From positions 1 to 64,000 of the IMG/VR virus record IMGVR_UViG_3300027973_000057: a stretch of DNA of 64,000 nt; one strand, given 5' to 3'. The position numbers were made by a program, and so were the translations under genes. Shown here one piece after another: positions 48,061 to 62,790 of the stretch (position 1 is its first letter; each line of letters opens with the position of its first letter). The notes under the pieces were generated by a model, which made no database searches, was not told the DNA's origin, and worked only from the letters and a program-made list of their open reading frames with translations. This stretch comes from a virus.

Positions 48061-48082
48061 TGTCAGACCCCCCTGCTATACT
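48061..48082 (+). promoter_or_regulatory. TGTCAG-N10-TATACT promoter (copy 1)
   Basis: TGTCAG at 48061, exactly 10 bp, then TATACT at 48077 with extended TGC. The -10/start region contains the palindrome TATACT-tac-AGTATA. Confidence 0.75.
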
Positions 48083-48098
48083 TACAGTATAAAGAAAG

Positions 48099-48115
48099 TC
48101 AATCAAGGTGATTGA
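48099..48115 (+). promoter_or_regulatory. Leader hairpin before first early operon
   Basis: TCAATC-aaggt-GATTGA in the 5' leader, followed by ACTAGAAAGG. The second early operon has the same structure with a different stem sequence. Confidence 0.6.
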
Positions 48116-48132
48116 ACTAGAAAGGAATTCAA

Positions 48133-48315
48133 ATGAATTCAAATGTAATAAACACAGTATGTGTGTCACATACCCCTAATAAGTCTGCTATCTCAGACCA
48201 TAATGATGAGCAATTCACATTTTGTGAAGTTTGCGAAACTAACATTGAGCGTTGGTATAACGATACCGACCCTGAGCGTCTACCTATGTGGACAGATTGG
48301 AAAGTGTCTAAATAA
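48133..48315 (+). CDS. Small early protein
   Basis: 60 residues (MNSNVINTVCVSHTPNKS..FCEVCETNIERWYND). C-x2-C near the centre suggests metal binding. AAAGGA precedes ATG. First gene of a three-gene operon. Confidence 0.65.
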   Translation: MNSNVINTVCVSHTPNKSAISDHNDEQFTFCEVCETNIERWYNDTDPERLPMWTDWKVSK

Positions 48316-48452
48316 TGAATAACATAATTTGTTGCTTTTGCGAAAACACTTATTCCGAAGGAACGCTATTCTGCGTTTCCTGTAATGAGTATAAAGGTCT
48401 AATGACTATAAATGAATTTGACAAATACTATGGAGAAAGGATTTATTCATAA
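48315..48452 (+). CDS. Zinc-ribbon micro-protein
   Basis: 45 residues. CCFCENTYSEGTLFCVSCN gives two C-x2-C knuckles. TAATG coupled at both ends. Confidence 0.65.
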   Translation: MNNIICCFCENTYSEGTLFCVSCNEYKGLMTINEFDKYYGERIYS

Positions 48453-48550
48453 TGAATTTCTATGAAACATTCTTTGTAAGTGGTAACGCACTATTCTGGT
48501 TCTCTATGATCTGTTTAATAAGTGGATTTTATTTATTCGTAAAAGAATAA
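48452..48550 (+). CDS. 32-residue membrane peptide
   Basis: One hydrophobic segment (ALFWFSMICLISGFYLF). TAATG coupled to the preceding gene. Function unknown. Confidence 0.6.
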   Translation: MNFYETFFVSGNALFWFSMICLISGFYLFVKE

Positions 48551-48571
48551 ATTTAATTCCCTGCAAAAAAT

Positions 48572-48643
48572 GGGACGTCGCCTGTGGATAACTTGTGGAT
48601 AACTTGTGTGATATTTATCACAAAAATACTTTCCCGACACGCC
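48572..48643. promoter_or_regulatory. Early regulatory cassette
   Basis: GGGACGTCG (48572-48580), two DnaA boxes TGTGGATAA (48583, 48594), CRP-like TGTGA-N6-TCACA (48607-48622), then CGACACGCC (48635-48643), all in 72 bp upstream of the next promoter. Confidence 0.7.
48607..48622. promoter_or_regulatory. CRP/GlxR-like operator
   Basis: Perfect TGTGA-TATTTA-TCACA, centred 74.5 bp upstream of the predicted start for promoter copy 2. Confidence 0.65.
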
Positions 48644-48660
48644 CGAAAAAGGGGTCAAAA

Positions 48661-48682
48661 TGTCAGTGGTAGGTGTTACACT
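48661..48682 (+). promoter_or_regulatory. TGTCAG-N10-TACACT promoter (copy 2)
   Basis: Same layout and leader length as copy 1, exactly 600 bp away, including palindrome TACACT-aat-AGTATA and hairpin TTGAGAA-agg-TTCTCAA (48699-48715). Confidence 0.75.
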
Positions 48683-48732
48683 AATAGTATAAAGAAAGTT
48701 GAGAAAGGTTCTCAAACTAGAAAGGTCAGATA

Positions 48733-48906
48733 ATGACAAATAGAATATGGGAAAGTCGTAATGACTACCAAGTTGAAAGTGACGCACAGCGTCTTGGATA
48801 TGTAGCCTGTTCAGCAGGTTGTGGCAGAGTAACCGCTTGGTCGCTCTGTGTAATGTGTGGCGGTAACTATACCGAACACAATCTACTAGGAAAGGTGGTC
48901 AAATAA
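48733..48906 (+). CDS. Zinc-ribbon micro-protein
   Basis: 57 residues. GYVACSAGCGRVTAWSLCVMCG has paired cysteines. AGAAAGG precedes ATG. First of six overlapping genes. Confidence 0.65.
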   Translation: MTNRIWESRNDYQVESDAQRLGYVACSAGCGRVTAWSLCVMCGGNYTEHNLLGKVVK

Positions 48907-49076
48907 TGACTACACTAAATGAAACACTATTCAGCACAATCGTGCACGAATACCATAATGGTGGTGTTCAATCCTCTTATGGATTAGACGCTTACACTAG
49001 AAAAGAATTGCTAAAATTCTTATTCAGTAGCAAAGGTTGCTATTGCATAAATTGTATCTCTAAGGAGTCTAAATAA
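48906..49076 (+). CDS. Small early protein
   Basis: 56 residues with a C-terminal CYCINC metal-binding-like motif. TAATG coupled at both ends. Confidence 0.65.
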   Translation: MTTLNETLFSTIVHEYHNGGVQSSYGLDAYTRKELLKFLFSSKGCYCINCISKESK

Positions 49077-49315
49077 TGAGTCTCTCTCTTGCTAATAAAT
49101 TGGCACAAGATAAATTCTTTCTGCCCCCTTCAAAATATATCAACCACAAAGTCGTGGAAATTATTTCGCTAAATGACGAAACTGAAACTGTGTCAGTTAC
49201 ACTTCAAAAATATGGAATTAGCCGTAGTGCTAATGCCGTAAAAGGTAATCTAATAACTATTGAATTACCTTATGCTGAATTCAAAAATCTAAATGGTTGG
49301 GGAAATAATAAATGA
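49076..49315 (+). CDS. Small early protein
   Basis: 79 residues, beta-rich middle (KVVEIISLNDETETVSVTLQ). TAATG start. No known domain. Confidence 0.65.
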   Translation: MSLSLANKLAQDKFFLPPSKYINHKVVEIISLNDETETVSVTLQKYGISRSANAVKGNLITIELPYAEFKNLNGWGNNK

Positions 49316-49476
49316 GCACTTTCATAAATCTTGATTCCGTTTGCGGAAAATCATCTGCCTCTGTTGATGTCTATGACTTAGACCTCAATCCTCATGGCGT
49401 TATCTGTTGCGATAACTGCCGTTCAATTTTAATCTGCCGTAAGGCATGGGACTTTTTATATAAGGAGAAAAACTAA
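49312..49476 (+). CDS. Zinc-ribbon micro-protein
   Basis: 54 residues. GVICCDNCRSILICRKAWDF carries the Cys pairs. ATGA overlap upstream, TAATG downstream. Confidence 0.65.
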   Translation: MSTFINLDSVCGKSSASVDVYDLDLNPHGVICCDNCRSILICRKAWDFLYKEKN

Positions 49477-49619
49477 TGCGAGTATTTGAATTCACTACAT
49501 TTATTGACATCGTTGCTAATAACTATGATGAAGCAATAGATATCTTTGATCATAAATTAAAATATGGAAACATAGATAGAAGCACTGTCTATGTTGCAGA
49601 CATTGAGGAGAAAGAATGA
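49476..49619 (+). CDS. Small early protein
   Basis: 47 residues (MRVFEFTTFIDIVANNYDEA..), ferredoxin-like beta-alpha pattern. TAAGGAG upstream; ATGA overlap with the next gene. Confidence 0.6.
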   Translation: MRVFEFTTFIDIVANNYDEAIDIFDHKLKYGNIDRSTVYVADIEEKE

Positions 49620-49705
49620 AAACACTTCAAGAAAAATTAGATTTAGTTTCTAAAGAATTAGAACCAATACTTTGGGAATTACTAAATGAAATTGAAAATG
49701 AATAA
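49616..49705 (+). CDS. 29-residue acidic helix
   Basis: MKTLQEKLDLVSKELEPILW.. predicted helical. ATGA overlap upstream; a terminator follows 13 nt later. Confidence 0.55.
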   Translation: MKTLQEKLDLVSKELEPILWELLNEIENE

Positions 49706-49717
49706 ATAAAAAACAAG

Positions 49718-49745
49718 ATCGCAGAAATAAAACTCTGCGATTTTT
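49718..49745 (+). terminator. Intrinsic terminator
   Basis: ATCGCAGA-aataaaac-TCTGCGAT followed by TTTT. Ends the six-gene operon from promoter copy 2. Confidence 0.9.
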
Positions 49746-49756
49746 GAACGTCCCCG

Positions 49757-49772
49757 TGTGACGAGAATCACA
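49757..49772. promoter_or_regulatory. CRP/GlxR-like operator
   Basis: Perfect TGTGA-CGAGAA-TCACA, centred 74.5 bp upstream of the P1 start near 49839. It is flanked by AACGTCCCC (49747) and ATGTCCGATTT (49779). Confidence 0.65.
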
Positions 49773-49803
49773 TCAAAAATGTCCGATTTGTGCGTGTCTA
49801 AAC

Positions 49804-49832
49804 TTGACTTTTTGACATTTATCTGCTAGTAT
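49804..49832 (+). promoter_or_regulatory. P1 promoter with long leader
   Basis: TTGACT-N17-TAGTAT, with palindrome TAGTA-ttc-TACTA over the -10 box. The leader contains two copies of GAGCCTAGC(A/G)AATAAATG at 49870 and 49904, related to the minus leader at 47760-47850. Confidence 0.7.
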
Positions 49833-49885
49833 TCTACTATAACAATTAAATAATGACTAATAAGGTAATGAGCCTAGCAAATAAA

Positions 49886-49901
49886 TGTGACCAGTATCAC
49901 A
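49886..49901. promoter_or_regulatory. CRP/GlxR-like operator
   Basis: Perfect TGTGA-CCAGTA-TCACA, centred 64.5 bp upstream of the predicted start of promoter copy 3. Confidence 0.65.
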
Positions 49902-49929
49902 GTGAGCCTAGCGAATAAATGCCCTAAAA

Positions 49930-49951
49930 TGTCAGCCCCTAATGGTAAGAT
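49930..49951 (+). promoter_or_regulatory. TGTCAG-N10-TAAGAT promoter (copy 3)
   Basis: Same fixed spacing. The leader begins ATCAACTAAAC and leads to GAAAGGAAG before ATG 49985. Confidence 0.65.
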
Positions 49952-49984
49952 AGTCTTATCAACTAAACGAAAGGAAGTCTAAAA

Positions 49985-50182
49985 ATGACTTACACTATAA
50001 CACTAGAAACCTTTTCAGGTTCTACAAAAAAAATCGCTATGCCCTCAAAAGGTGCGGTTGCTCAATTCATCTCAACTTATCCAACTCAATTACCTGTTGG
50101 CGTATCTGTCAAGGTTGCTTGCGATACTCTCGGAATTAGTGGCACACTTCGTGGCACTCTTACACCCTCAAACTCAAACTAA
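49985..50182 (+). CDS. Small early protein
   Basis: 65 residues (MTYTITLETFSGSTKKIAMP..), beta-rich and Ser/Thr-rich. AAAGGAAG upstream. No known domain. Confidence 0.65.
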   Translation: MTYTITLETFSGSTKKIAMPSKGAVAQFISTYPTQLPVGVSVKVACDTLGISGTLRGTLTPSNSN

Positions 50183-50201
50183 GAATAGGAAAACTAAAAT
50201 A

Positions 50202-50408
50202 ATGGTAAAAGTAAATCACTCTCTAAATTTCGTTACAGAATTTGACGAAACACATCCAATCGCTAAACAAGCACTTTCAATTCCTGAATCAGATTTAATT
50301 GCTATGCTTGAAGGAATGCTAAAAGAATTATTAGTGCCTGCACTAACTTCAACCCTTGATGAAATAAATGCTCGTGGCACTTACGCAATTCTAAAGGTGG
50401 CAGAATAA
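50202..50408 (+). CDS. Small early protein
   Basis: 68 residues starting MVKVNHSLNFVTEFD at 50202, preceded by AGGAAAAC. The longer frame from 50052 overlaps the previous gene and is rejected. Helical C-terminal half. Confidence 0.65.
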   Translation: MVKVNHSLNFVTEFDETHPIAKQALSIPESDLIAMLEGMLKELLVPALTSTLDEINARGTYAILKVAE

Positions 50409-50608
50409 TGATGACCCGTAAAGACTATGTAGCAACTGCTGAAATTCTTAGCAATTACTTTGCTACCTCTGTTTTTGATGAGCAAGGAGAAATGCTATTT
50501 GCTGATTTAGTAGATGAATTTTCTCTAATGTTTGAAACAGATAATCCAAGATTTGACGCAACTAAATTTGCTATTGCTTGCTATGAAAAATTGGAGATGG
50601 CTAAATGA
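50408..50608 (+). CDS. Small early protein
   Basis: 66 residues, helical (YVATAEILSNYFATSVFDEQ). TAATG coupling; a second ATG follows directly, so the product may start one residue later. Confidence 0.65.
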   Translation: MMTRKDYVATAEILSNYFATSVFDEQGEMLFADLVDEFSLMFETDNPRFDATKFAIACYEKLEMAK

Positions 50609-50754
50609 TTTTAGATACTGGAACACTTCTTGCAATCATAATTGCACTTGGTGGATCAATAACAGTTATGTGTTTATTCTGGAAACAGAACGCAGAACTA
50701 ACAAGAGAAAACTATCGACTGCGTAATGAATTGCGTAAATCAAAACTAATCTAA
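50605..50754 (+). CDS. Small membrane protein with coiled tail
   Basis: 49 residues. One transmembrane segment (TLLAIIIALGGSITVMCLFW) and a charged helix. ATGA overlap upstream. It resembles spanin or membrane-anchor micro-proteins, but the location is early. Confidence 0.6.
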   Translation: MILDTGTLLAIIIALGGSITVMCLFWKQNAELTRENYRLRNELRKSKLI

Positions 50755-50761
50755 AATAAAA

Positions 50762-50789
50762 TCCTAAGCATGATTTAAAACTGCTCTCA
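50762..50789 (+). repeat. Repeated 3' element (copy 1)
   Basis: ATCCTAAGCATGATTTAAAA then CTGCTC. Related copies follow genes at 53815-53844 and 56301-56328, with a partial one at 54468. GAGCA and TGCTC can pair, so it may be a weak terminator or RNA-processing site. Confidence 0.5.
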
Positions 50790-50795
50790 ATTTTT

Positions 50796-50863
50796 GGGAC
50801 GTCGGGGTCGGGCGTGTCGTCCACAGACTTATCCACAGGACTATTTGTGTGAGATTTATCACA
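50796..50863. promoter_or_regulatory. Early regulatory cassette with CRP-like site
   Basis: GGGACGTCG (50796), GGCGTGTCG (50811), DnaA box TTATCCACA (50829) and perfect TGTGA-GATTTA-TCACA (50848-50863). The CRP-like centre is 86.5 bp upstream of the next P1 start. Confidence 0.65.
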
Positions 50864-50906
50864 CGGCTTGAGCGTCTCACTATTTGGATTTACTGGCTAG
50901 TAAGTT

Positions 50907-50935
50907 GATAATTTGTGTCTAATAGGCTAGACTTA
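50907..50935 (+). promoter_or_regulatory. P1-type promoter
   Basis: TTGATA-N17-TAGACT. A second GGCGTGTCG box lies at 50970 between it and promoter copy 4. Confidence 0.5.
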
Positions 50936-50987
50936 CATAGTAAGAAAAAATAAATAGTTTAGCAATTACGGCGTGTCGTTTAGAAAA

Positions 50988-51009
50988 TGTCAGTCTAATA
51001 TGCTAAGAT
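50988..51009 (+). promoter_or_regulatory. TGTCAG-N10-TAAGAT promoter (copy 4)
   Basis: TGTCAG 50988-50993 and TAAGAT 51004-51009, with a leader starting ATCAACAAAAAAAG before an AAGAGG ribosome site. Confidence 0.7.
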
Positions 51010-51043
51010 ATTTATATCAACAAAAAAAGAAAGAGGTTGGCAA

Positions 51044-51259
51044 ATGTCAGCAAATGTCTATACAATAGAAAACCTACTTGTAGGAAAGTCCTATCGCTCA
51101 CGCACCCTAACAGGTGAAATTATCTCAGCAGAGATACACCCTAAAGCAGTTTGGTATGAAAATTGTGAAACTTATCTTGTAGAAATTGCACCTAATAGCG
51201 GAAGCAATACTTGGGGTCGCAGAACTTATCGCACAGTTGCAGTAAAGACAGGAGAATAA
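51044..51259 (+). CDS. Small early protein
   Basis: 71 residues (MSANVYTIENLLVGKSYRSR..), small beta-barrel-like pattern. AAGAGG upstream. First gene of a five-gene operon. Confidence 0.65.
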   Translation: MSANVYTIENLLVGKSYRSRTLTGEIISAEIHPKAVWYENCETYLVEIAPNSGSNTWGRRTYRTVAVKTGE

Positions 51260-51262
51260 GTA

Positions 51263-51406
51263 ATGGGATATGTAGAAATTTTTAGAATTGACGAAGATGG
51301 TGCAGGTTGGGTAGACTTATCTCAAGCAACACCCGATGAACTATTTACTTTGGAAGTGGGCTTACTAAATGAAGGTGCATTATTCACAACGAAAGAGGCA
51401 GACTAA
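51263..51406 (+). CDS. Small early protein
   Basis: 47 residues, acidic (MGYVEIFRIDEDGAGWVDLS..). AGGAGAA upstream; TAATG to the next gene. Confidence 0.6.
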   Translation: MGYVEIFRIDEDGAGWVDLSQATPDELFTLEVGLLNEGALFTTKEAD

Positions 51407-51615
51407 TGGAATATAACTACTCTCTAACTATTGCCTATGACGGCGAATTGGTATCAACAACACGAAGTGCAGATATGCTTGAGATGGTATCTGAATGGAA
51501 TAAGTGTGTAGACTTTGGAGACGCTAAAGAATACGCAACCTATAATCTGTCAGACCCTACTGGCAAGATGTATACTAAGACTTTCTACCGCAACGGAAAT
51601 GTGAGCGTGAAATAA
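51406..51615 (+). CDS. Small early protein
   Basis: 69 residues, beta-rich (YNYSLTIAYDGELVSTTRSA). TAATG start. No known domain. Confidence 0.6.
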   Translation: MEYNYSLTIAYDGELVSTTRSADMLEMVSEWNKCVDFGDAKEYATYNLSDPTGKMYTKTFYRNGNVSVK

Positions 51616-51616
51616 T

Positions 51617-51901
51617 ATGGGTTCAGTTACAGCATTAGGAATTAAAGATGAAGTCTTAGACCTAGAGACTCAGATTCTCTATCACTTAAAGGGTAATCAC
51701 TATCCCCCTGTCCCCGCAGAAATGGTTGCCCCTTGCATAGAGGCTATTGACGCATACTACGAAGAAGATTACAATCGAGAAATTTCTATGCCCAAAGTTG
51801 GAGACTTTCAGATTATGTATAAAAATTCCATTACGGCACCTGCTTGGGCTATCGTGGAACAGCACCACCTGCAATTCTGGCTGCCAGAGGAGGAATACTA
51901 A
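51617..51901 (+). CDS. Small early protein
   Basis: 94 residues with IEAIDAYYEEDYNREISMP in the centre. One base after the upstream stop. No known domain. Confidence 0.65.
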   Translation: MGSVTALGIKDEVLDLETQILYHLKGNHYPPVPAEMVAPCIEAIDAYYEEDYNREISMPKVGDFQIMYKNSITAPAWAIVEQHHLQFWLPEEEY

Positions 51902-51903
51902 AA

Positions 51904-52149
51904 ATGTCTGCTACAATAAAAACTATGCAATTAATTTACGCAGACCTACTTACTCCAGATCAGTTGATGGAGGAAGATTTGATTAAGGTAGATGGTGAAA
52001 TAGTCACTGTCATAGGAATTGAATCTAATCCTAGTGGTGATATTTATTATGTAGGTTATGAAGATGACTTTGGTGATAAAGATGTAGTTGAATTTAACTA
52101 CGATCAAAAAGTTGAACTTTATGTATTCCGTGAAGATTTAGAAGATTAA
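51904..52149 (+). CDS. Small acidic early protein
   Basis: 81 residues starting MSATIKTMQLIYADLL; AGGAGG precedes ATG 51904, so the longer frame is rejected. The region DGEIVTVIGIESNPSGDIYY looks like a small SH3-like barrel. Confidence 0.65.
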   Translation: MSATIKTMQLIYADLLTPDQLMEEDLIKVDGEIVTVIGIESNPSGDIYYVGYEDDFGDKDVVEFNYDQKVELYVFREDLED

Positions 52150-52167
52150 CTAAAACCCCTAAAAAAT

Positions 52168-52211
52168 GGGACGTCCCGCAGTCGGGCGTGTCGCATGTGA
52201 GATTAATCACA
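52168..52211. promoter_or_regulatory. Early regulatory cassette with CRP-like site
   Basis: Palindromic GGGACGTCCC (52168-52177), GGCGTGTCG (52185-52193) and perfect TGTGA-GATTAA-TCACA (52196-52211), centred 53.5 bp upstream of the P1 start. Confidence 0.7.
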
Positions 52212-52220
52212 ATTTATGAT

Positions 52221-52250
52221 TTGACATTTTTACTTTATCTCTGCTAGTAT
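52221..52250 (+). promoter_or_regulatory. P1 promoter, leaderless
   Basis: TTGACA-N18-TAGTAT, ending 6 nt before ATG 52257. Confidence 0.7.
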
Positions 52251-52256
52251 TAAGTT

Positions 52257-52403
52257 ATGAAGAAGTCATCTGAGGAATTACGCAAACTAATGGAATTACG
52301 CCGTAGTAATGCTGCTTCCGCTGTGCCTTCTAAAAAGGCTTACAATCGCAAGAAATGTCAGTCTGAACTGCTACAATTAAAATATCAACAAAAAGGAGAA
52401 TAG
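52257..52403 (+). CDS. 48-residue basic peptide containing the next promoter
   Basis: MKKSSEELRKLMELRRSNAA.. is basic and helical. The second half of the frame contains promoter copy 5 and the next ribosome site, and it ends at the AGGAGAATAG that serves as that site. It may be a real peptide or a leader peptide. Confidence 0.5.
   Translation: MKKSSEELRKLMELRRSNAASAVPSKKAYNRKKCQSELLQLKYQQKGE
52356..52377 (+). promoter_or_regulatory. TGTCAG-N10-TACAAT promoter (copy 5)
   Basis: Lies inside the 48-residue frame. The transcript would begin near ATCAACAAAAAGGAG and serve 52408-53371. Confidence 0.65.
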
Positions 52404-52407
52404 CCCC

Positions 52408-52584
52408 ATGGGAAATATCGCAGATGAATTCTATGATGAATACTACGCAACTGTCTGTCCGTCTTGTCAAGAAAATTCGGTAGACGCATATGAAGAAAAA
52501 TGCACTCATTGCTTACTAGAAGAAATGTCCGCTACATATAACGAAGACATCGCTCTAGAAATGAGTCTTGGTCTTGACTACTAA
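52408..52584 (+). CDS. Zinc-ribbon micro-protein
   Basis: 58 residues. CPSCQENSVDAYEEKCTHC forms a four-cysteine ribbon; the rest is acidic. AAGGAG upstream. It overlaps the GP88-like gene start. Confidence 0.65.
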   Translation: MGNIADEFYDEYYATVCPSCQENSVDAYEEKCTHCLLEEMSATYNEDIALEMSLGLDY

Positions 52585-53299: not shown

Positions 53300-53371
53300 A
53301 TGATGAGTTTATTTTATTTATTAATGATAACACTAGTAATGTGTGCACTCCTTGGTTCTAGTGGGTTCTAG
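53300..53371 (+). CDS. Possible 23-residue membrane peptide
   Basis: ATG directly follows the GP88 stop (TAAATG). MMSLFYLLMITLVMCALLGS is fully hydrophobic. Real translation is uncertain. Confidence 0.35.
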   Translation: MMSLFYLLMITLVMCALLGSSGF

Positions 53372-53578: not shown

Positions 53579-53600
53579 TGTCAGTAGGAAATGTTATACT
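53579..53600 (+). promoter_or_regulatory. TGTCAG-N10-TATACT promoter (copy 6)
   Basis: Fixed spacing; leader contains ATCAACCAAACAAAAGGAG before ATG 53634. Confidence 0.7.
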
Positions 53601-53633
53601 TGGATTATCAACCAAACAAAAGGAGAAACAAAA

Positions 53634-53798
53634 ATGGCAGTAGCAACAGCAACATACAAGGTAGGCGACCTCTACACAACACAGAAGTCAAAGGTTACAG
53701 GAACAATTCAGGAGATTACTCCACAGGCAAATGGAAATGTTCGTGTAAAGTTAGATGTAAATGGCACACCTCGTTACACAACTTGGACAGCAAAGTAA
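53634..53798 (+). CDS. Small early protein (two possible forms)
   Basis: 54 residues (MAVATATYKVGDLYTTQKSK..), a small barrel-like domain. AAAGGAG lies 8 nt upstream of ATG 53634. An alternative in-frame start at 53520, directly at promoter P1, would give a 92-residue form. The two promoters may therefore produce long and short isoforms. Confidence 0.65.
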   Translation: MAVATATYKVGDLYTTQKSKVTGTIQEITPQANGNVRVKLDVNGTPRYTTWTAK

Positions 53799-54299: not shown

Positions 54300-54510
54300 A
54301 TAACGAAACAGGGGCAGTTTAGAGAGTGTTCTCGCCCAATGTCGTAAGTAAGAACTCTCATTATTAGGGCAAGGGGTTCAGAGCCTCTCCTATGTTCGCC
54401 AGGCTGATTAGGGCGACAATAGAAATACTATAGAGCAAGGTTCCTGCAGACCTAAAGAAGCAGACATCCTGAGCACGATCCAAAAAGGCTCCCCGCAAGG
54501 GTCTTTGACA
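54300..54510 (+). other. Gene-free stretch with possible structured RNA
   Basis: About 210 bp without a convincing gene. Complementary pieces include GAGAGTGTTC with GAACTCTC, AGCCT with AGGCT, and GCCC with GGGC. It ends with a partial copy of the repeated 3' element (TCCTGAGCACGAT at 54468) before promoter copy 7. It may be a non-coding RNA, but no family is recognised. Confidence 0.3.
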
Positions 54511-54512
54511 AA

Positions 54513-54534
54513 TGTCAGTGGCCACTAGTACAAT
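54513..54534 (+). promoter_or_regulatory. TGTCAG-N10-TACAAT promoter (copy 7)
   Basis: TGTCAG 54513-54518, TACAAT 54529-54534; leader AAACAAACTAACAG then AAGAGG before ATG 54567. Confidence 0.7.
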
Positions 54535-54566
54535 TAATATAAACAAACTAACAGAAAGAGGCCCCC

Positions 54567-55007
54567 ATGGACCAGCAATACCCAACAATAATCAATGCAA
54601 CTGATGAATTTAATCAGAAGCAGGCTGCAGCACTACAAGAAGCAATTGAAAAAAAGGATGCATTAATTGTATCTCTTCAAGACCGTATGTCTGCAATGTC
54701 TCAGCGCTCATATGCTGATTCAGCGGAGCGTAACCGTATGGTTGAATCAATGCAAGAGTGGACTCTAGAAGAGTTAAGCAATGAAACAATTACAGAATCA
54801 CAGGCCCAAGAAATTGCAGAAATTATGGGCTTTGACCTTACCAAGGAAGTTGAAGTTGAGGTTACCGTTACGTACAACCTAACACTGCAGGTACCTCATG
54901 ATGAGGACGCCGAATCAATTGTTAACGATATCGATTTTGAATCTGTATCTTATAATTCTGATAACATCACATGGCTATCGGCCAGTGTTGACAGAATTGA
55001 TTTTTAG
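54567..55007 (+). CDS. Early protein, unknown
   Basis: 146 residues. The N-terminal helix (QKQAAALQEAIEKKDALIVS) is coiled-coil-like; the C-terminus is beta-rich (EVEVEVTVTYNLTLQV). AAGAGG upstream. Single-gene unit from promoter copy 7. Confidence 0.7.
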   Translation: MDQQYPTIINATDEFNQKQAAALQEAIEKKDALIVSLQDRMSAMSQRSYADSAERNRMVESMQEWTLEELSNETITESQAQEIAEIMGFDLTKEVEVEVTVTYNLTLQVPHDEDAESIVNDIDFESVSYNSDNITWLSASVDRIDF

Positions 55008-55110: not shown

Positions 55111-55187
55111 GACGTCCCGCCTGTGGATAACTTTGTCAAATCGACACGCCGTTACGACTATATGATCTTTCCCACAATGTCCGATTT
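55111..55187. promoter_or_regulatory. Early regulatory cassette
   Basis: GACGTCCCGC (55111), DnaA box TGTGGATAA (55122-55130), CGACACGCC (55142-55150) and ATGTCCGATTT (55177-55187). No CRP-like site here. Confidence 0.6.
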
Positions 55188-55216: not shown

Positions 55217-55238
55217 TGTCAGTCAGTCCTGCTATACT
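55217..55238 (+). promoter_or_regulatory. TGTCAG-N10-TATACT promoter (copy 8)
   Basis: TGTCAG, exact 10-bp spacer, extended TGCTATACT; leader TTTCAACAAACAAAAAGGAG before ATG 55271. Confidence 0.75.
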
Positions 55239-55270
55239 TAAATTTCAACAAACAAAAAGGAGAAAAACTC

Positions 55271-56293
55271 ATGGCACATGACCTAGAAACACAAAACGGC
55301 GTTGCATCTTTTGCATCATTCCGTGAACCCGCTTGGCATGGATTGGGTACCGTATTTACAGAAGAGAAAACAACTAGCGAGATGCTATCAGCAGCAAATC
55401 TCAATGGTTGGAATGTTCGTCTGGAAGATTTGGAAACCCCATCGCATCTATCAAGCGACAAGTCGTACCAATATGTATTGCGTACAAACCCTACAGACAA
55501 CACACAAACCGATATTCTTGGAATCGTTGGTGAGCGTTATGTCCCTCTACAGAATGAAGATTTATTCTCATTCGGTGATAACATTCTAGATGGTGGTGGT
55601 CGTTGGGAGACTGCTGGTGCTATCAAGGGTGGTCGTGTAGTATTCGGCTCTCTTGCTCTTGAGCGTGAGACTGTACTAGACCCAAATGGTGTTGCAGATA
55701 AGGTAAAGACTTATTTGCTCATTAACACATCACACGATGGCTCTATTGCAATTCAAGCATCTATTACACCTGTTCGTGTTGTATGTGCTAACACTCTTAA
55801 CCTTGCTCTTGGTGGCGTAGGTCGTAAGAAGAATAAGGGCATCAAGCAATCATTCAAGATTCGCCACACGCAAACAGCAGAAGGCAAAATCCAAATTGCT
55901 CGTGAGACTCTTGGTCTTGCTAATGCTTACATGGACGAATTCGACATCATGGCTAAGGCAATGATTGAGAAGGAAGTCAATGCTAAATCGTTTAACGATA
56001 TTATTCTCGCTGCTTATCCTAAGCCAGAAAAAGATGCTAAGGGTGCAATCAAGAAGTGGGAAAACAAGGTCGATATTATTAACGACATCTACACAGGTGA
56101 ATTTAATGGTATGATTGCTGGCAATGCGTGGGGTGCGTTTAATGCACTTACAGAACGCCTTGACTGGTACCGCTCTGCTCGTGGTGGTTCTAACGAATCT
56201 ATCCTTGCATCAGCATCAGGATTTGACCCTGCAATTAACGCAGAGAAAAATCGTTTGCTAAAAGTTGTACAAAATGTAATGCAACTTTCATAA
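55271..56293 (+). CDS. DUF932 / TIGR03299 phage-plasmid protein
   Basis: 340 residues. MAHDLETQNGVASFASFREP, AWHGLGTVF, LGIVGERYVPLQNEDLFSF and RVVCANTLNLALG are hallmarks of the DUF932 (phage/plasmid-like TIGR03299) family, common in mycobacteriophages and plasmids. Molecular function unknown; it is associated with replication-type gene regions. Strong AAAAGGAG site and promoter copy 8 suggest high early expression. Confidence 0.9.
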   Translation: MAHDLETQNGVASFASFREPAWHGLGTVFTEEKTTSEMLSAANLNGWNVRLEDLETPSHLSSDKSYQYVLRTNPTDNTQTDILGIVGERYVPLQNEDLFSFGDNILDGGGRWETAGAIKGGRVVFGSLALERETVLDPNGVADKVKTYLLINTSHDGSIAIQASITPVRVVCANTLNLALGGVGRKKNKGIKQSFKIRHTQTAEGKIQIARETLGLANAYMDEFDIMAKAMIEKEVNAKSFNDIILAAYPKPEKDAKGAIKKWENKVDIINDIYTGEFNGMIAGNAWGAFNALTERLDWYRSARGGSNESILASASGFDPAINAEKNRLLKVVQNVMQLS

Positions 56294-56331: not shown

Positions 56332-56405
56332 GGTCCGTTAGAATAGTTGGTTAGTTCGCTACCCTGTCACGGTAGAGGTCACGGGTTCAAGTCCCGTACG
56401 GATCG
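56332..56405 (+). tRNA. tRNA-Asp (GTC)
   Basis: 74 nt. Acceptor GGTCCGT/ACGGATC (one G-U pair), D arm with TTGGTTAG, anticodon stem CTACC/GGTAG with loop CTGTCAC (anticodon GTC), T stem ACGGG/CCCGT with loop TTCAAGT, discriminator G, no encoded CCA. It follows a copy of the 3' repeated element. Confidence 0.93.
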
Positions 56406-56441
56406 CAAGTAATAAATATGCAAGTGAATGCATAAAAATGC

Positions 56442-56535: not shown

Positions 56536-56703
56536 ATGACCCAAACAACCAAACCATACACAATAGATGAACTAATGCAAAAAATATATGATGAGAATTT
56601 TTCTCATTTTGATTTCATGGACAACATGAATGGTGGAGAATGTGATTGTAAATTACATATAGCAATGGATTTGATGTATGAATATGGGGGTGGATTATGT
56701 TAG
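56536..56703 (+). CDS. Small early protein
   Basis: 55 residues (MTQTTKPYTIDELMQKIYDE..) with GGECDCKLH. Predicted leaderless; overlaps the next gene by 7 nt. Confidence 0.6.
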   Translation: MTQTTKPYTIDELMQKIYDENFSHFDFMDNMNGGECDCKLHIAMDLMYEYGGGLC

Positions 56704-56855
56704 GCTATAATAAAACAGATCTAGATGATATGACAGAAGGTTTGTCAGTGGTCTTGGATACAATTAAGGATAACCCATATGTTTACAATAGCGTATGGAA
56801 AGCAAGAGACCTACTTGAGGGTCTATGGGCAGAAGGGTACTTTGACTACAAATGA
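56697..56855 (+). CDS. Small early protein
   Basis: 52 residues, acidic and helical (LSVVLDTIKDNPYVYNSVWK). ATGA overlap with the next gene. Confidence 0.6.
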   Translation: MLGYNKTDLDDMTEGLSVVLDTIKDNPYVYNSVWKARDLLEGLWAEGYFDYK

Positions 56856-57422: not shown

Positions 57423-57699
57423 GATGACATTAGACCCATACCTAATGAAACAGGTAGACATGGGTATGGACGGAGCAGACATTCTGCACGGACACCTAAA
57501 GACTATGATGTATGAGGCTGAACAACAGTTAGACCTATGCATTGAGGCAGAGGAGTACTCAGAGGAAGCCATGGACTCTATGGCTCGTACGGAGGCTTCA
57601 GGATACCTTGACGCACTATCTGAGGTTTATGCCTTGACCTATGCCATTGCTTTTGCCAAAGAAGATATTAAGAACCGTAAGGAGATTCTTGGTGAATAA
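57415..57699 (+). CDS. Small acidic helical protein
   Basis: 94 residues, helical and acidic (ILHGHLKTMMYEAEQQLDLC). TTGGAGG upstream. No known domain. Confidence 0.65.
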   Translation: MDKMTLDPYLMKQVDMGMDGADILHGHLKTMMYEAEQQLDLCIEAEEYSEEAMDSMARTEASGYLDALSEVYALTYAIAFAKEDIKNRKEILGE

Positions 57700-58210: not shown

Positions 58211-58392
58211 TGCCTAAGTACACAGTAACAGCCACACGAGAGACTTACTATGAGTTTGAGATTGAGGCAGAGGATGAACTATCTGCTGAAGATCAAGTAA
58301 GACAATTAGAACTTGAAGGTGACATTGAAACATATGCCTATGACTGGTATCCTTTAGAAGTACAATCAATCGAAGAGGAAGAGGAAGAGTAA
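58210..58392 (+). CDS. Small acidic beta protein
   Basis: 60 residues. YTVTATRETYYEFEIEAEDE is typical of small phage proteins loosely similar to DpnD/PcfM-type domains; poly-Glu C-terminus. TAATG coupling. Confidence 0.65.
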   Translation: MPKYTVTATRETYYEFEIEAEDELSAEDQVRQLELEGDIETYAYDWYPLEVQSIEEEEEE

Positions 58393-58739
58393 TGGGAGCA
58401 CGAATTAATTACGTATTCAAAGACAGTGAGTCAGGGCCTATGGTTGTACTCTATAGCCACTGGGGTCAGACTGAATGGGAGCGGGACCTAGCAATGGCCC
58501 TGCAACACGCAAAACCTCGTCTAGGTGATTCATCATATGGTACCCGTATGATTATTAGTTATCTTATTCAAGATAGCATTCTGGAAGAGACAGGGTTTGG
58601 TATCTATGCTATCGACAATGATGGCTATGACCTAGGAGAGCAAACCGTGCTCATCGACTTCACTAACAATACTATTACTGATAATGTATCAGTAGACTTT
58701 GATAAATTTGTGGCTGCGTATTCGCCACTAACTGTCTAA
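58392..58739 (+). CDS. Early protein, unknown
   Basis: 115 residues. RINYVFKDSESGPMVVLYSH followed by WGQTEWERDLAMALQHA is a pattern seen in many actinophage early proteins. TAATG coupling. Last gene before a terminator. Confidence 0.65.
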   Translation: MGARINYVFKDSESGPMVVLYSHWGQTEWERDLAMALQHAKPRLGDSSYGTRMIISYLIQDSILEETGFGIYAIDNDGYDLGEQTVLIDFTNNTITDNVSVDFDKFVAAYSPLTV

Positions 58740-58761
58740 GGAGTGGGTCCCTTAGACTAAT

Positions 58762-58805
58762 GGGGATGGGGTAAGTCCTGCAGATTTGCCCCTCCCCTTC
58801 TTTTG
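58762..58805 (+). terminator. Intrinsic terminator
   Basis: GGGGATGGGG pairs with CCCCTCCCC (one bulge) across a 16-nt loop, followed by TTCTTTTG. Confidence 0.75.
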
Positions 58806-58832
58806 CGGTACAATAGATAAGAGAGGAGTATC

Positions 58833-59072
58833 ATGCCTAGAAGTAGTATATATGCCAAGCCCTCGCATAATAAAGAATCAAGAAAAGCAGAGCAAATAGC
58901 AAAACTACTCACGGAAGATTTCTCTATTGACCTAGAGCGAGTTGGCTATTATTTGGTTAGAAATCTACCTATGATTGTTTTTCATAGGTTTGATGTCCTT
59001 GCCTTGACAGCACAGGAAGAGCATGGTAAACTTATGGAAGAGATGAAAACAGGAGGCCCATCATGGCGGTAG
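58833..59072 (+). CDS. Small basic early protein
   Basis: 79 residues (MPRSSIYAKPSHNKESRKAE..). GCGGTACAAT then GAGAGGAG precede ATG. Overlaps the next gene by 10 nt. Confidence 0.65.
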   Translation: MPRSSIYAKPSHNKESRKAEQIAKLLTEDFSIDLERVGYYLVRNLPMIVFHRFDVLALTAQEEHGKLMEEMKTGGPSWR

Positions 59073-59365
59073 AGTTTGCAGATAAAGCAGGTATCTTAGG
59101 AACACTCTGGATCGAGTTCAGAGCAGATGAAGATTTTTCAGATTTTATTGAATACAATGACCTTGGATTACCAATGGCATATATGATTGCAGAAGGTTTG
59201 GTTAAAGAACTTACAGCAACAGGTGAATCATTAATCGATGAAACATTTAATATGTTTTGTGAATTGCTAGAAATCACAGAAGAAGATTTTGATGCTCTTG
59301 ATGATATTAACCTTGGTTCGGTTTTGATGTTTGCTTATAATAAAAAGCAGAACACAGCAGAATAA
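59063..59365 (+). CDS. Small acidic early protein
   Basis: 100 residues, helical and acidic (ELLEITEEDFDALDDINLGS). GGAGG upstream inside the preceding gene. Unknown function. Confidence 0.65.
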   Translation: MAVEFADKAGILGTLWIEFRADEDFSDFIEYNDLGLPMAYMIAEGLVKELTATGESLIDETFNMFCELLEITEEDFDALDDINLGSVLMFAYNKKQNTAE

Positions 59366-59374
59366 TTAAACATT

Positions 59375-59400
59375 GCGAGGGGCCTTGCGCCCCTTGCTTT
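59375..59400 (+). terminator. Intrinsic terminator
   Basis: GCGAGGGGC-cttgc-GCCCCTTGC followed by TTTG. Confidence 0.8.
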
Positions 59401-59665
59401 GTGCTGCCTGGACGGGACGTCAAACCATATCAAATCGGACATATTACCCAAACCACATTTTCTTATATAAACATTACGAAGATCAAATTCTTTTCCCCAA
59501 ACGTGGAACTTTTATTTTTTAAAACAAAGATTACGAAGGACAAATATTTTTCCCCGTACCAAACCTTATATCAGACAAACCTTTATTTGTCAAGTATTCA
59601 AATAATATATCCAAACCCCTATATCATACAAACATTTGTTTGTCAAATAGGTGTATAATAATTTT

Positions 59666-59878
59666 ATGAGTCCAAGACATTTTTCTAGAACAATGAATCC
59701 ACAAATGGCAAGACAAGAAGATAAAGGTTTGGAACAAGTCTTTACTTCCTTTACTGTTCTTATAGGGTTGGGTAGATACTTTTCTCCAGATCCCGTCGTG
59801 GCAATGTCTAATAAGACTATCGAAGATCCAGAAGCGGGACGGGATCAAAAGATAAACCACTCTTCCCTATATAACTAA
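59666..59878 (+). CDS. Small hypothetical protein
   Basis: 70 residues from ATG 59666 (MSPRHFSRTMNPQMARQEDK..). TATAAT ends 6 nt before ATG (leaderless); the longer frame overlaps that promoter. Inside it GATCCCGTC and GACGGGATC form a 9-bp inverted repeat. Unknown function. Confidence 0.55.
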   Translation: MSPRHFSRTMNPQMARQEDKGLEQVFTSFTVLIGLGRYFSPDPVVAMSNKTIEDPEAGRDQKINHSSLYN

Positions 59879-60025
59879 TACCTGATATACAAACACTTTT
59901 ATCCAAACAATTTTTTGATTTGTTTTGGATATTTTTTATATCTTTTCAAATAAAATATTACGATAATCAAACATTTTTCCCCAAATTTGGATATTTTTGT
60001 CATACAATTTTGGTACAAAATGAAG

Positions 60026-60054
60026 TTGACAAACATAAGGTTTGGGTATATAAT
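60026..60054 (+). promoter_or_regulatory. Perfect consensus promoter without a clear gene
   Basis: TTGACA-N17-TATAAT. Only a 19-codon frame follows directly; the next supported gene starts at 60287. The product may be a short RNA through the TTTGGATAT repeats. Confidence 0.6.
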
Positions 60055-60286
60055 GCCATGTTTGGATATATGGATTTGACAAAGGTTTGGATATGTGATA
60101 GGGGGTTTGGCCCGTAAGATTACGACGCCCTTCTTATAAATGCTCTATACTCCACTATCCTCCACTTTACTCCACTTCTAGAATGTCAAACAACATAATC
60201 AGTAATATTTATTTGTGGATAAACCTGTGGATAACTTTTTTGCACGGAACCTATATCTGTTAACCTTCATGTGATACTATAGGGTT

Positions 60287-60418
60287 ATGGAATGCAAACA
60301 CTACTATGAAATTGATCTAGATGGCAAGGTTTCTTGCTCTAATTGTCATGCTGCAGTAGATGAAATTGAAACAAAAAATAACGATTTCTGGTCATCACAA
60401 ATGAGTTTTGAGGAATAG
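60287..60418 (+). CDS. Zinc-ribbon micro-protein
   Basis: 43 residues. ECKHYYEIDLDGKVSCSNCH provides C-x-H..C-x2-C ligands. TGATACTAT ends 6 nt before ATG (leaderless). Confidence 0.6.
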   Translation: MECKHYYEIDLDGKVSCSNCHAAVDEIETKNNDFWSSQMSFEE

Positions 60419-60454
60419 GTTTTATATCTTATACTAGGGGTTATTGGGTCTTTC

Positions 60455-60483
60455 TTGACTTACCCGCTCCAAATTGCTATACT
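60455..60483 (+). promoter_or_regulatory. Leaderless promoter
   Basis: TTGACT-N17-TATACT with extended TGC, ending 6 nt before ATG 60490. Confidence 0.75.
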
Positions 60484-60489
60484 AGATAC

Positions 60490-60627
60490 ATGAATAAAGA
60501 ATATCGAATTAAAGACAGATACTGGGTACAGGTGGGCTATTCAAAAGGCTTTGGTCTAGGCTTTCGTATTGATCGCTATTCAACAAATATAGATTTCCTA
60601 TGGTTTTGGATTAGCATTGAGTACTAA
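60490..60627 (+). CDS. Small aromatic early protein
   Basis: 45 residues (MNKEYRIKDRYWVQVGYSKG..), rich in Trp/Tyr/Phe. Leaderless start; overlaps the next gene. Confidence 0.6.
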   Translation: MNKEYRIKDRYWVQVGYSKGFGLGFRIDRYSTNIDFLWFWISIEY

Positions 60628-60829
60628 GACATATGAAATCCCTGATCCATTCCAAACCTTTGTAGCCAAGAAATATGCCAATGCTAAAGGCTATGTACAT
60701 GACTGGTTTACTGGTGAATGGTCTTATACTTGCTCTACTTGTAAGGAAGATCTTTCTGGTCCATCCCGCAAAATTTTGACAAAGATCAGGTTATATCATA
60801 CAAGAAATGAGTGCCTTGGTGGATACTAA
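60617..60829 (+). CDS. Zinc-binding small protein
   Basis: 70 residues from TTG 60617; no in-frame ATG fits and the start lies in the end of the previous gene. YTCSTCKEDLSG..YHTRNEC gives C-x2-C and H-x3-C ligands. Confidence 0.6.
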   Translation: MSTKTYEIPDPFQTFVAKKYANAKGYVHDWFTGEWSYTCSTCKEDLSGPSRKILTKIRLYHTRNECLGGY

Positions 60830-60983
60830 TTGCTGCACAATTGATAAAGACAGTGAGTCCTTCTGGTATACCCATCAAACCATGCCTGATGGCCATATCT
60901 GGTGTCTCACCAAGTCTATGGTCGATAAGGCTAAGGCTGATATTAAGGCTAAGTATGGAAATAAGAAAAGACACAGACAGTAA
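60807..60983 (+). CDS. Small basic protein
   Basis: 58 residues (MSALVDTNCCTIDKDSESFW..) with a Lys/Arg-rich end. Overlaps the previous gene by 23 nt in another frame; TAAATG junction with the HNH gene. Confidence 0.6.
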   Translation: MSALVDTNCCTIDKDSESFWYTHQTMPDGHIWCLTKSMVDKAKADIKAKYGNKKRHRQ

Positions 60984-61349
60984 ATGCCAATTAAATCTAA
61001 GGAAGAGCGTAATCGTGTCCAACGCCTATGGTATCAGCGCAATAAAGAAGCAAGACTAATCCAGATCAAATCTAAGGTATCTTGGATAAGAAAATATGTG
61101 TCTGACCATAAGGCTAATAACCCTATCTGTGTTGACTGTGGAATTGATTATCCTCCACATGTGTTAGATTTTGATCACTTACCAGAGTTTGAAAAATCTT
61201 TTGCTCTATCATCATCTGGTGTTAAGGGCAGAGGCTTAGACTCAGTTAATTCTGAGATAGCAAAATGTGAGATAGTCTGTGCCAATTGCCATAGACATAG
61301 AACCTTTATGAGAAAAGCAGAAGCAAGGGCTAAAAGCAATGATAGTTAA
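60984..61349 (+). CDS. HNH endonuclease
   Basis: 121 residues. C49-x2-C52, LDFDH (Asp64-His65) and C99-A-N-C102-H103-R-H-R-T form the zinc-stabilised HNH (beta-beta-alpha-metal) site. The basic N-terminal helix (EERNRVQRLWYQRNKEAR) likely binds DNA. It could be a free-standing homing endonuclease or part of DNA processing; no packaging genes are near. Confidence 0.85.
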   Translation: MPIKSKEERNRVQRLWYQRNKEARLIQIKSKVSWIRKYVSDHKANNPICVDCGIDYPPHVLDFDHLPEFEKSFALSSSGVKGRGLDSVNSEIAKCEIVCANCHRHRTFMRKAEARAKSNDS

Positions 61350-61391
61350 TTACCTAGACTGGCTTACTATTAATAATATAGATTGGGAATA

Positions 61392-61622
61392 ATGACATAC
61401 GACGAAATCTCTACTCAGATAGAGTCTTTGAAGACTGCTAGAGGTGGTTGGACTAAAGCCTCTCTTGCATCTCTTGGTGTACCCTGGCCTCCTCCTGCAG
61501 GTTGGAAGCAAAGACTACTAGATAAGGCAACAGATAGAACATGTGAACATAAGTGGTATATGAGATCACCTGGAATTCAGTGTGTAAATTGTTTTATAGT
61601 CTGGGAAAAGAGTATGGGATGA
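61392..61622 (+). CDS. Small protein with WPPP motif and zinc ribbon
   Basis: 76 residues from ATG 61392 (a TTG 9 nt earlier is possible). RGGWTKASLASLGVPWPPPAG is a conserved-looking phage motif; CEHKW..CVNC gives zinc ligands. Function unknown. Confidence 0.6.
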   Translation: MTYDEISTQIESLKTARGGWTKASLASLGVPWPPPAGWKQRLLDKATDRTCEHKWYMRSPGIQCVNCFIVWEKSMG

Positions 61623-61723
61623 GAATATTAATCTGTCCAGTCTGTAAAAAGGAATGGGATTTAAGATGGGGTATATTTGGACACGACTCCCTATCTAGGC
61701 ATATGAAGGCTAATCACCGATAG
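61619..61723 (+). CDS. C2H2-like zinc finger micro-protein
   Basis: 34 residues. ICPVCKKEWDL..GHDSLSRHMKANH fits C-x2-C..H-x4-H of a C2H2 finger. ATGA overlap with the previous gene. Confidence 0.65.
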   Translation: MRILICPVCKKEWDLRWGIFGHDSLSRHMKANHR

Positions 61724-61754
61724 TGCCCGTGTAGGGCATGGGATGGTTTTATAA
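61723..61754 (+). terminator. Weak terminator candidate
   Basis: TGCCC-gtgta-GGGCA immediately after the stop, then TGGGATGGTTTT. The T-run is 12 nt away, so termination is uncertain. Confidence 0.4.
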
Positions 61755-61781
61755 TTCCTATTTTTGCCGAACTTTAAAAAA

Positions 61782-61790
61782 TGCTATAAT
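61782..61790 (+). promoter_or_regulatory. Extended -10 promoter, leaderless
   Basis: TGCTATAAT ending 6 nt before ATG 61797, with no clear -35 box. Confidence 0.65.
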
Positions 61791-61796
61791 TAAAAT

Positions 61797-62681
61797 ATGC
61801 AAAAAGATTCAAACATAATAAATATGCTTCGCTTGGAAATGTATAGTACTTTTGTACTAAATGGGTATGGAATGCCATTTGGTTCAAGCATCACTATTGA
61901 TCCTAATACAAAGTACATCACAAATTCCCTTGGATTTCGCACACAAGAATTTGGTAAAACACCAGATTTTATTTTTGCTGGATGTTCTCACACTTGGGGA
62001 TGGGGTATTGACGAGTCTTTGATTTGGGGCAATCGTATTGCAAAAACCAAGCAGATCGAGACACGAAACCTTGGAATTAGTAATGGTTCTATAACAACAA
62101 TAATAGATAATCTAATCGCATATTTTGACAAATTTGGTAAGCCAAAAGTATTATTTTGTTTATTTCCAAGTTTAGCAAGAATGAATGTTTGGACAGATAG
62201 AAGTGTATTTATTGGAAGACACGGATTTGATTCTTTAAGAGATACAGCCGTTCCAGTTAAGGGTGATCTTCCAAAATATTCACAAAAACCACACAAGTTA
62301 GAAGAGGTTTTAACTTCAGAACTACCAACCCTATTATCATTAAAATATATTTTAAATTTTGAGCAATACTGTATATCTAATAATATTATTTTTAAATATG
62401 CATTTTGGGATCCAACAGATGACCGAATGATGAATGGCTTACCCCACAATAATAGTTATCAGGGTTATGTTAAGTCTGACTCTGATCTATGGGTTAGAGA
62501 TGGTATTGTTGAGGTTTTTAATGGATCTAAGGATTGTCACACACCATCTAACGAATTAGAGCAGTACGCATGGCTTCATGGTATGGATATAGAGTTATCA
62601 AGTTTGCCCCATATTGGCGCACATAGACAAATTCATTACTACGAACTATTTCTTAATGAATATGATAAGATTTATTCATGA
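61797..62681 (+). CDS. SGNH/GDSL-type hydrolase
   Basis: 294 residues. Block I is AGCSHTWGWG with nucleophile Ser64; NLGISNGS fits blocks II-III; SSLPHIGAHRQIH near the C-terminus supplies the catalytic His (His272), with the usual Asp of DxxH replaced by Ser. The family includes esterases acting on acylated carbohydrates. In a phage it may modify surface glycans. Substrate unknown. Confidence 0.75.
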   Translation: MQKDSNIINMLRLEMYSTFVLNGYGMPFGSSITIDPNTKYITNSLGFRTQEFGKTPDFIFAGCSHTWGWGIDESLIWGNRIAKTKQIETRNLGISNGSITTIIDNLIAYFDKFGKPKVLFCLFPSLARMNVWTDRSVFIGRHGFDSLRDTAVPVKGDLPKYSQKPHKLEEVLTSELPTLLSLKYILNFEQYCISNNIIFKYAFWDPTDDRMMNGLPHNNSYQGYVKSDSDLWVRDGIVEVFNGSKDCHTPSNELEQYAWLHGMDIELSSLPHIGAHRQIHYYELFLNEYDKIYS

Positions 62682-62761
62682 AATTTATACTATTTTATTT
62701 AGAAAGACTTGTTAGGTCCATATTAAAGAAAAATAAAAAGAAAAAAGACTATACTTATTAG
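62678..62761 (+). CDS. 27-residue basic membrane-associated peptide
   Basis: MKFILFYLERLVRSILKKNK.. has a hydrophobic start and a poly-Lys tail. ATGA overlap with the hydrolase gene. Confidence 0.5.
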   Translation: MKFILFYLERLVRSILKKNKKKKDYTY

Positions 62762-62768
62762 TCCAACA

Positions 62769-62790
62769 TGTCTGTAGTATCTGGTATACT
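62769..62790 (+). promoter_or_regulatory. TGTCTG-N10-TATACT promoter (variant, copy 9)
   Basis: One mismatch in the upstream box but the same 10-bp spacing; TGGTATACT ends 6 nt before ATG 62797, so this copy is leaderless. Confidence 0.55.

Follow-up and report, generated by a model that had tools for sequence, protein, structure and literature searches.

Probable PafBC-type promoters with a TGTC(A/G)G box at a single distance from the -10 element in a clade of large phages

A 64,000-nucleotide stretch of the IMG/VR virus record IMGVR_UViG_3300027973_000057 (hereafter the window, part of a record of 66,573 bases) carries a series of promoters in which TGTCAG lies exactly 10 base pairs (bp) before a TAnnnT -10 element, raising the question of what kind of promoter this is and which protein reads its box. 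Judged by motif and spacing, the boxes probably represent PafBC-type (-26 element) promoters read by the PafBC of an actinobacterial host. The initial annotation had proposed a new promoter class, which is contradicted by the match of the core, spacing, and -10 to a published mycobacterial consensus (PMC5656591) reported to be bound by PafBC (PMC11804915). The promoter kind is already known; a phage clade placing its small-gene, probably early, region under PafBC looks new.

The pattern TGTCAG-N10-TAnnnT occurred 10 times on the plus strand of the window and never on the minus strand compared to 0.95 expected matches, and none of 100 shuffled sequences reached 10. These included all eight promoters listed by the initial annotation (48061, 48661, 49930, 50988, 52356, 53579, 54513, and 55217), which are clear promoters, plus two matches within coding sequence: one at 51045 overlapping the ATG TCA start of the open reading frame (ORF) at 51044 and one at 56743 inside ORF 56697-56855. 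TGTCAG by itself was without enrichment in the whole window (31 seen versus 37.8 expected), which leaves its pairing with TAnnnT over 10 bp as the signal. In the plus-strand spectrum of gaps from 0 to 30, gap 10 held the 10 matches and every other gap at most six (gap 16). The TGn of an extended -10 was present in seven of the eight promoters, the exception being 54513. A common leader start had also been claimed; it held for half of the set, with ATCAAC precisely at the predicted +1 in four promoters (49930, 50988, 52356, and 53579) and ATAAAG (two), AAACAA, and TCAACA in the others.

The consensus for mycobacterial RecA-independent DNA-damage promoters, credited to Gamulin 2004, is reported as tTGTCRgtg-8nt-TannnT (PMC5656591). 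Its spacing is identical to that of the phage box, as 8 nucleotides after TGTCRGTG equal 10 after TGTCRG to TAnnnT, and this distance was found in the window and in related loci. The R position was A in all eight window promoters, a set chosen on TGTCAG, and the predicted box position of -28 to -23 fits the published "-26 motif". PafBC is described as a WYL activator that inserts between promoter DNA and SigA domain 4, with PafB engaging the -26 motif and PafC contacting SigA domain 4; single-stranded DNA is reported to activate it, and it adapts the housekeeping sigma factor (PMC11804915). The phage sites share with the mycobacterial PafBC promoters the TGTCR-g core, an asymmetric box, the exact TAnnnT spacing, a dispensable -35, and the predicted -26 position. 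They differ in lying in a phage small-gene block, in a preceding base that is mostly A, in ACC being as common as TGG after the box, in the common extended -10, and in phased CRP-like sites upstream.

The search of related phages suggested by the initial annotation bore out the pattern. A composite of 19 fixed bases, AATGTCAG-N7-TGnTAnnnT-N6-ATCAAC, was run on viral contigs and matched at least 120 stretches, in which TGTCAG lay 10 bp before TAnnnT 820 times compared to 159 for the next commonest gap (range 4-21). The core pattern was matched 298 times in 39 IMG/VR records (4 to 19 each) versus once for a reversed control pattern; the 39 records were drawn from the composite-scan loci and each holds at least one site by construction. 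A reference set of 12 of the 39 records shared ORFs with all 120 composite-scan loci listed. These 12 records, some of which are fragments, contained 13 to 20 promoter-like sites each with a ribosome-binding-site-like stretch and a start codon downstream versus 0 to 6 at control spacings. Two further scans listed 216 new loci, of which 211 shared at least three ORFs with the clade and had a mean of 7.8 sites (0.21 at control spacings); the other five had no ORFs in common with it and one to three sites each. Among the at least 336 loci listed from the three scans, 331 fell in a single large-phage clade with kinship to Stanwilliamsviridae. Record G006 (116,566 bases) contains the genes of the window, nearly all 98-100% identical, and the portal protein of the window was 47-49% identical to Streptomyces phage portals in the best 30 hits, two of these phages being classed as Stanwilliamsviridae.

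Loosening single bases of the box in the 12 records while retaining the extended -10 gave 109 TGTCAG sites at this spacing versus 0 or 1 at each of eight other spacings. TGTCGG (17 versus 0.1 in control spacings) and TGTCTG (10 versus 0.9) were the only clear variants, followed by TGTCAT (5 versus 1.0) and TATCAG (4 versus 1.2). The box sharpens to TGTC(A/G)G at one spacing. A consensus of 319 non-redundant sites outside the scan pattern was A-rich at -31 to -29, followed by TGTCAG (fixed by the search), A/T, C/G, and C/G, then C/A at -16, T at -15 (66%), G at -14 (76%), TAnnnT, and A at +1 (69%). The three bases behind the box were ACC in 104 of 343 and TGG in 92 of 343 sites. A broader set of 467 non-redundant sites from the at least 336 loci was selected on TGTC-N12-TAnnnT, TGn, and A or G at -9, with exact matches to the scan pattern removed. 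In this set, the base after TGTC was A in 73% and G in 20% (A or G in 93%) and the second base was G in 424 of 467 (91%), with T (60%) and G (41%) thereafter. The gap from TGTC to TAnnnT in the same loci was 12 bp in 3233 cases, including 429 scan-pattern matches, versus 409-1096 for every other gap between 6 and 19. The invariance of the box could in principle reflect descent only, with promoter cassettes copied within phages and no selection, and many sites do precede related genes in related phages. Yet the flanks and most of the spacer vary among 350 sites that are less than 80% identical and sites chosen on TGTC alone still keep the following R and G, so that descent without selection is regarded as extremely improbable.

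For the inverted box CTGACA, counts ranged from 8 to 20 over all gaps between 4 and 23 with none preferred, and the site is therefore polar. A reversed -10 was found upstream of the inverted box at no preferred distance, so a divergent promoter with this box as its -35 was rejected.

Several observations weigh against a PafBC-type identity or limit how far it can be taken. The weak flanking positions of the mycobacterial consensus gave a mixed and largely poor fit in the window: the t before TGTC was absent from all eight promoters, which have A instead (t in 26% of the 467 sites), the t after TGTCRG was found in six of eight (60% of the 467), and the second g, at -21, in two of eight (41%). 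In the divergent lineage of record G039, TGTC was kept and the two following bases were relaxed. Eight named Streptomyces and Rhodococcus phages had no excess of the box, with 0 to 3 matches each versus 11 in G006 and 11 in G013, and in three named phages TGTC had no peak at the box spacing. The records were found through the box itself, and kinship inflates all counts although near-copies were dropped. The 19-base composite had a single match in a genome collection, in Tenacibaculum, which is about chance level by arithmetic; the complete phage form is therefore not common to cellular promoters. As judged from these matches, what is specific to phages is the form complete with its leader, and hosts may still have the box itself. 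Motif identity is also no proof of which protein reads the motif: ClgR is reported to recognize the mycobacterial P1 motif (PMC5656591), and a conserved small helix-turn-helix protein of the phages weakly resembles sigma region 4 (a hit in record G005). Finally, a -35 matching at least five of six bases at 16-19 bp was present in 52 of 350 non-redundant related sites (49 at 17 or 18 bp) versus 11 of 1400 shifted controls.

The other 298 of the 350 sites lacked a -35 of five of six or better and the -35 is not required. This largely upholds the claim that the promoters have no -35 box, the exception in the window being 54513 with a perfect TTGACA at 54505-54510. The -35 sits at 17 or 18 bp, whereas the box spacing spectrum has a single peak. 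Ordinary TTGACA-17/18-TA promoters were present in the same phages (55 and 55 versus 5-19 at other gaps), and two promoter kinds thus coexist. Among box promoters, a -35 was rarer where the TG of the extended -10 was present (Fisher p 0.039, non-redundant sites). This trade-off fits a positive element better than a repressor operator in the promoter spacer. An operator would account for the box position, where a bound repressor would block polymerase, but the single orientation and spacing and the lack of a TGTCAG excess in the whole window speak against one, and this explanation is rated very unlikely.

The distinct architecture and the fixed box distance call for a factor beside RNA polymerase, as the initial annotation had argued in proposing a dedicated factor; its suggestion that the phage encodes this factor was not supported. 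Among 28 phage records searched (11 above 95 kb and 17 below, which may be fragments), the WYL domain PF13280 was matched in none, with the control matched in 7 of 14 genomes. A phage PafBC is accordingly not supported as the reader, and the likeliest and simplest reader would be the host PafBC. A phage sigma factor, the other form that the proposed factor had been given, found no support: Sigma70_r4 (PF04545) was above the cut-off in 0 of 28 records and below it in five, region 2 not having been searched. WhiA was dropped as a candidate, with HTH_WhiA above the cut-off in none of the 28 records and one weak hit. An altered RNA polymerase contact, also raised by the initial annotation, fits solely as sigma adaptation by an activator.

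A phage-encoded regulator could nevertheless read the box. One candidate is a phage WhiB, for which sigma-A domain 4 is a possible docking site; the other is the small helix-turn-helix protein of 48-56 amino acids in the replication gene cluster. WhiB was above the cut-off in 20 of the 28 records including 11 of 11 above 95 kb, and in record G018 one whiB gene lies directly behind a TGTCAG promoter; the small protein was found in six of seven long records, with the weak sigma region 4 similarity mentioned for G005. However, both have Streptomyces phage homologs (the small one also in Rhodococcus phages), yet the named phages have no box excess. Wbl proteins are reported to act at sigma domain 4, with WhiB7 just upstream of the -35 (PMC6282962), while the box here keeps one distance to the -10, from which we infer a poor match. 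A phage-encoded reader is consequently considered unlikely. A survey of 80 G006 proteins (from 131 short non-structural ORFs) with Pfam and PHROGs, which is not exhaustive, gave WhiB as the sole transcription factor among the 25 families listed per library (of 34 and 57 matched), and PHROGs added two "DNA binding protein" families, 9759 (two members) and 3636 (one). As candidate phage-specific readers, genes were compiled that occurred in at least six of seven long records and had no counterpart found in three named phages.

Two conserved G006 proteins not found in the three named phages were observed alongside. One of 174 amino acids (L133:18666-19190), 91% identical between two phages and encoded behind an ordinary TTGACA promoter, had a proteasome-family match just over the cut-off (PF00227, E 5e-5). 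The other, of 134 amino acids (L133:1612-2016), resembles a small heat-shock protein by eye from its sequence.

The box could also be read by a different host regulator acting at this promoter, either ClgR or a second WYL factor, but this is considered quite unlikely. Besides the P1 recognition reported for ClgR, SiwR is described as a second WYL activator in Mycobacterium smegmatis that binds between the -35 and -10; its target promoter is reported to have a 19-bp imperfect palindrome (PMC10693628), unlike the asymmetric phage box, and in structural work the -26 motif is attributed to PafB (PMC11804915). For the preferred reader, host PafBC, the host itself is thought to be a freshwater actinobacterium based on WhiB, kinship, and the low GC content of the phages, and we infer that it possesses PafBC. 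The isolated phages of "Ca. Nanopelagicales" carry genes for WhiB and a sigma-70 factor; these 39-kb phages are described as another family (PMC10202952).

Upstream of the box, CRP-like palindromes (TGTGA-N6-TCACA) were found at 104 sites in 343 upstream regions versus 3.4 expected and occurred in 28% of regions; orthologous promoters inflate these counts even after sites of at least 80% identity were dropped. Their centers peaked at -64.5 (18), -74.5 (18), and -84.5/-85.5 (20) from the predicted start, that is, in a 10-bp phase. When positions were counted from the CRP site, TGTCAG occupied the six bases lying 10 bp before an extended -10 in 22 of 37, 27 of 32, and 6 of 8 cases at distances of 60, 70, and 80, compared to 3 of 7 at 69 and 0 of 5 at 61. 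The 12 records gave 100 readings of CRP sites (each palindrome in both directions, 89 non-redundant); 38 had a phased -10-like hexamer and TGTC was present in 26 of these 38. In the window, a phased CRP-like site accompanied just two of the eight promoters (48661 and 49930).

Known promoter systems offer partial parallels. Class I CRP promoters share the palindrome upstream in 10-bp phase, the phage peaks lying about 3 bp off the class I position reported as -61.5 (PMC10936776). T4 middle promoters, with the MotA box and sigma appropriation by AsiA/MotA (PMC6755090), are likewise a phage regulon in which a box near -30 replaces the -35 and the -10 is often extended, but their box is different and MotA and AsiA are phage proteins, whereas no such phage factor was identified here. 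Streptomyces SARP/AfsR promoters are similar in having an activator box between the -35 and -10, a fixed distance to the -10, and a mechanism like sigma adaptation; the SARP boxes are reported as direct repeats 11 or 22 bp apart (PMC10936776), and no such repeat was present in the phage sites. A SARP promoter was rejected, with TGTC 11 or 22 bp upstream in fewer than 8 of 349 sites (14, 10, and 13 at 14, 23, and 32 bp).

A mechanism can be proposed from the motif, its single spacing and polarity, clade conservation, CRP phasing, and the lack of WYL and sigma region 4 matches over the cut-off in the 28 records, combined with the PafBC mechanism and single-stranded DNA activation published for mycobacteria. 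In the host heterodimer PafBC, activated by single-stranded DNA, the helix-turn-helix of PafB would bind TGTC(A/G)G at -28 to -23 of the phage promoters, and that of PafC would contact sigma-A domain 4. The housekeeping holoenzyme would then start from the often extended -10 with no need of a -35 (sigma adaptation), and class-I-type stimulation may come in addition from a CRP-like host activator bound upstream on a single helical face. A small, probably early, gene block would thereby come under the host DNA-damage response, for which infection or replication might serve as the trigger. The PafBC mechanism would account for where the box lies, for its polarity and its register with the -10, and for why a -35 can be dispensed with. 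Host PafBC as reader of the boxes, binding of the palindromes by a host CRP-type protein, and early expression of the genes are all proposed here; early expression is probable solely from the small size of the genes and from their relatedness to genes located close to the end of Streptomyces phage genomes.

It is somewhat favored that this freshwater actinophage clade has put an early regulon of about 13 to 20 promoters per genome under the host PafBC, which senses single-stranded DNA, and a phased CRP-like activator. Early transcription would then be turned on and amplified by infection itself, through single-stranded DNA arising at entry or replication. If true, the host damage alarm serves the phage as a start signal. 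Repression of anti-phage systems is a described role of WYL regulators (PMC10693628); in the open-license literature, neither phage use of a WYL activator nor a phage clade with many copies of a PafBC-type promoter was found. An apparently unknown phage promoter would thereby gain a concrete, testable link to the actinobacterial PafBC damage response, and for this phage clade the box offers a handle for picking out the regulon, with a working pafBC as a predicted trait of the host.

The window promoters all lie on the plus strand. The first (48061..48082) has its -26 box at 48061-48066, the extended -10 TGCTATACT, and a predicted +1 at 48089 upstream of ORF 48133-48315. Promoter 48661..48682 has TGTCAG, TGTTACACT, and a predicted +1 at 48689, with the CRP-like palindrome TGTGATATTTATCACA at 48607..48622 (plus strand) centered at -74.5. 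Promoter 49930..49951 combines TGTCAG and TGGTAAGAT with a predicted +1 at 49958 (ATCAAC) upstream of ORF 49985-50182, and the palindrome TGTGACCAGTATCACA (49886..49901, plus strand) is centered at -64.5. Promoter 50988..51009 (TGTCAG, TGCTAAGAT, predicted +1 at 51016, ATCAAC) precedes ORF 51044-51259; a CRP-like palindrome at 50848..50863 (plus strand) is centered at -160.5 from it, outside the phased positions. Promoter 52356..52377 has TGTCAG, TGCTACAAT, and a predicted +1 at 52384 (ATCAAC).

Other upstream elements were also observed. An element (GACACGCC; CGACACGCC, which contains a WhiA-type GACAC) was located at 48635-48645 and 50968-50978 in the window and had fixed places in related loci, centered at -50.5 or reversed at -41.5. 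DnaA-box-like sites (TTATCCACA / TGTGGATAA) were identified upstream of box promoters in the window (47955-48006, 48583-48602, 50829-50837, and 55122-55130) and enriched in related phages (56 and 29 versus 2.7 each), further upstream than the GACACGCC element.

Promoter 53579..53600 (TGTCAG, TGTTATACT, predicted +1 at 53607, ATCAAC) lies immediately upstream of a gene (53634-53798) for a 54-amino-acid protein; in several related loci, too, this gene comes right after a box promoter. The protein is predicted to be all-beta and has homologs in seven of seven long records; by sequence no solved structure matched, and its model (pLDDT 75) gave no fold match at E 0.001 or better. Promoter 54513..54534 has TGTCAG and a TACAAT without TGn, the TACAAT following its TTGACA after an 18-bp spacer, and has a predicted +1 at 54541 upstream of ORF 54567-55007. 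A ninth site with TGTCTG, reported at 62769, was present (62769..62790, TGGTATACT) as a weaker candidate, since its predicted +1 at 62797 coincides with the A of the ATG start codon in ORF 62797-62988 and the transcript would be leaderless. Promoter 55217..55238 (TGTCAG, TGCTATACT, predicted +1 at 55245) precedes ORF 55271-56293 (PHROG 1221, unknown function), soon after which a tRNA-Asp(gtc) is located at 56332-56406.

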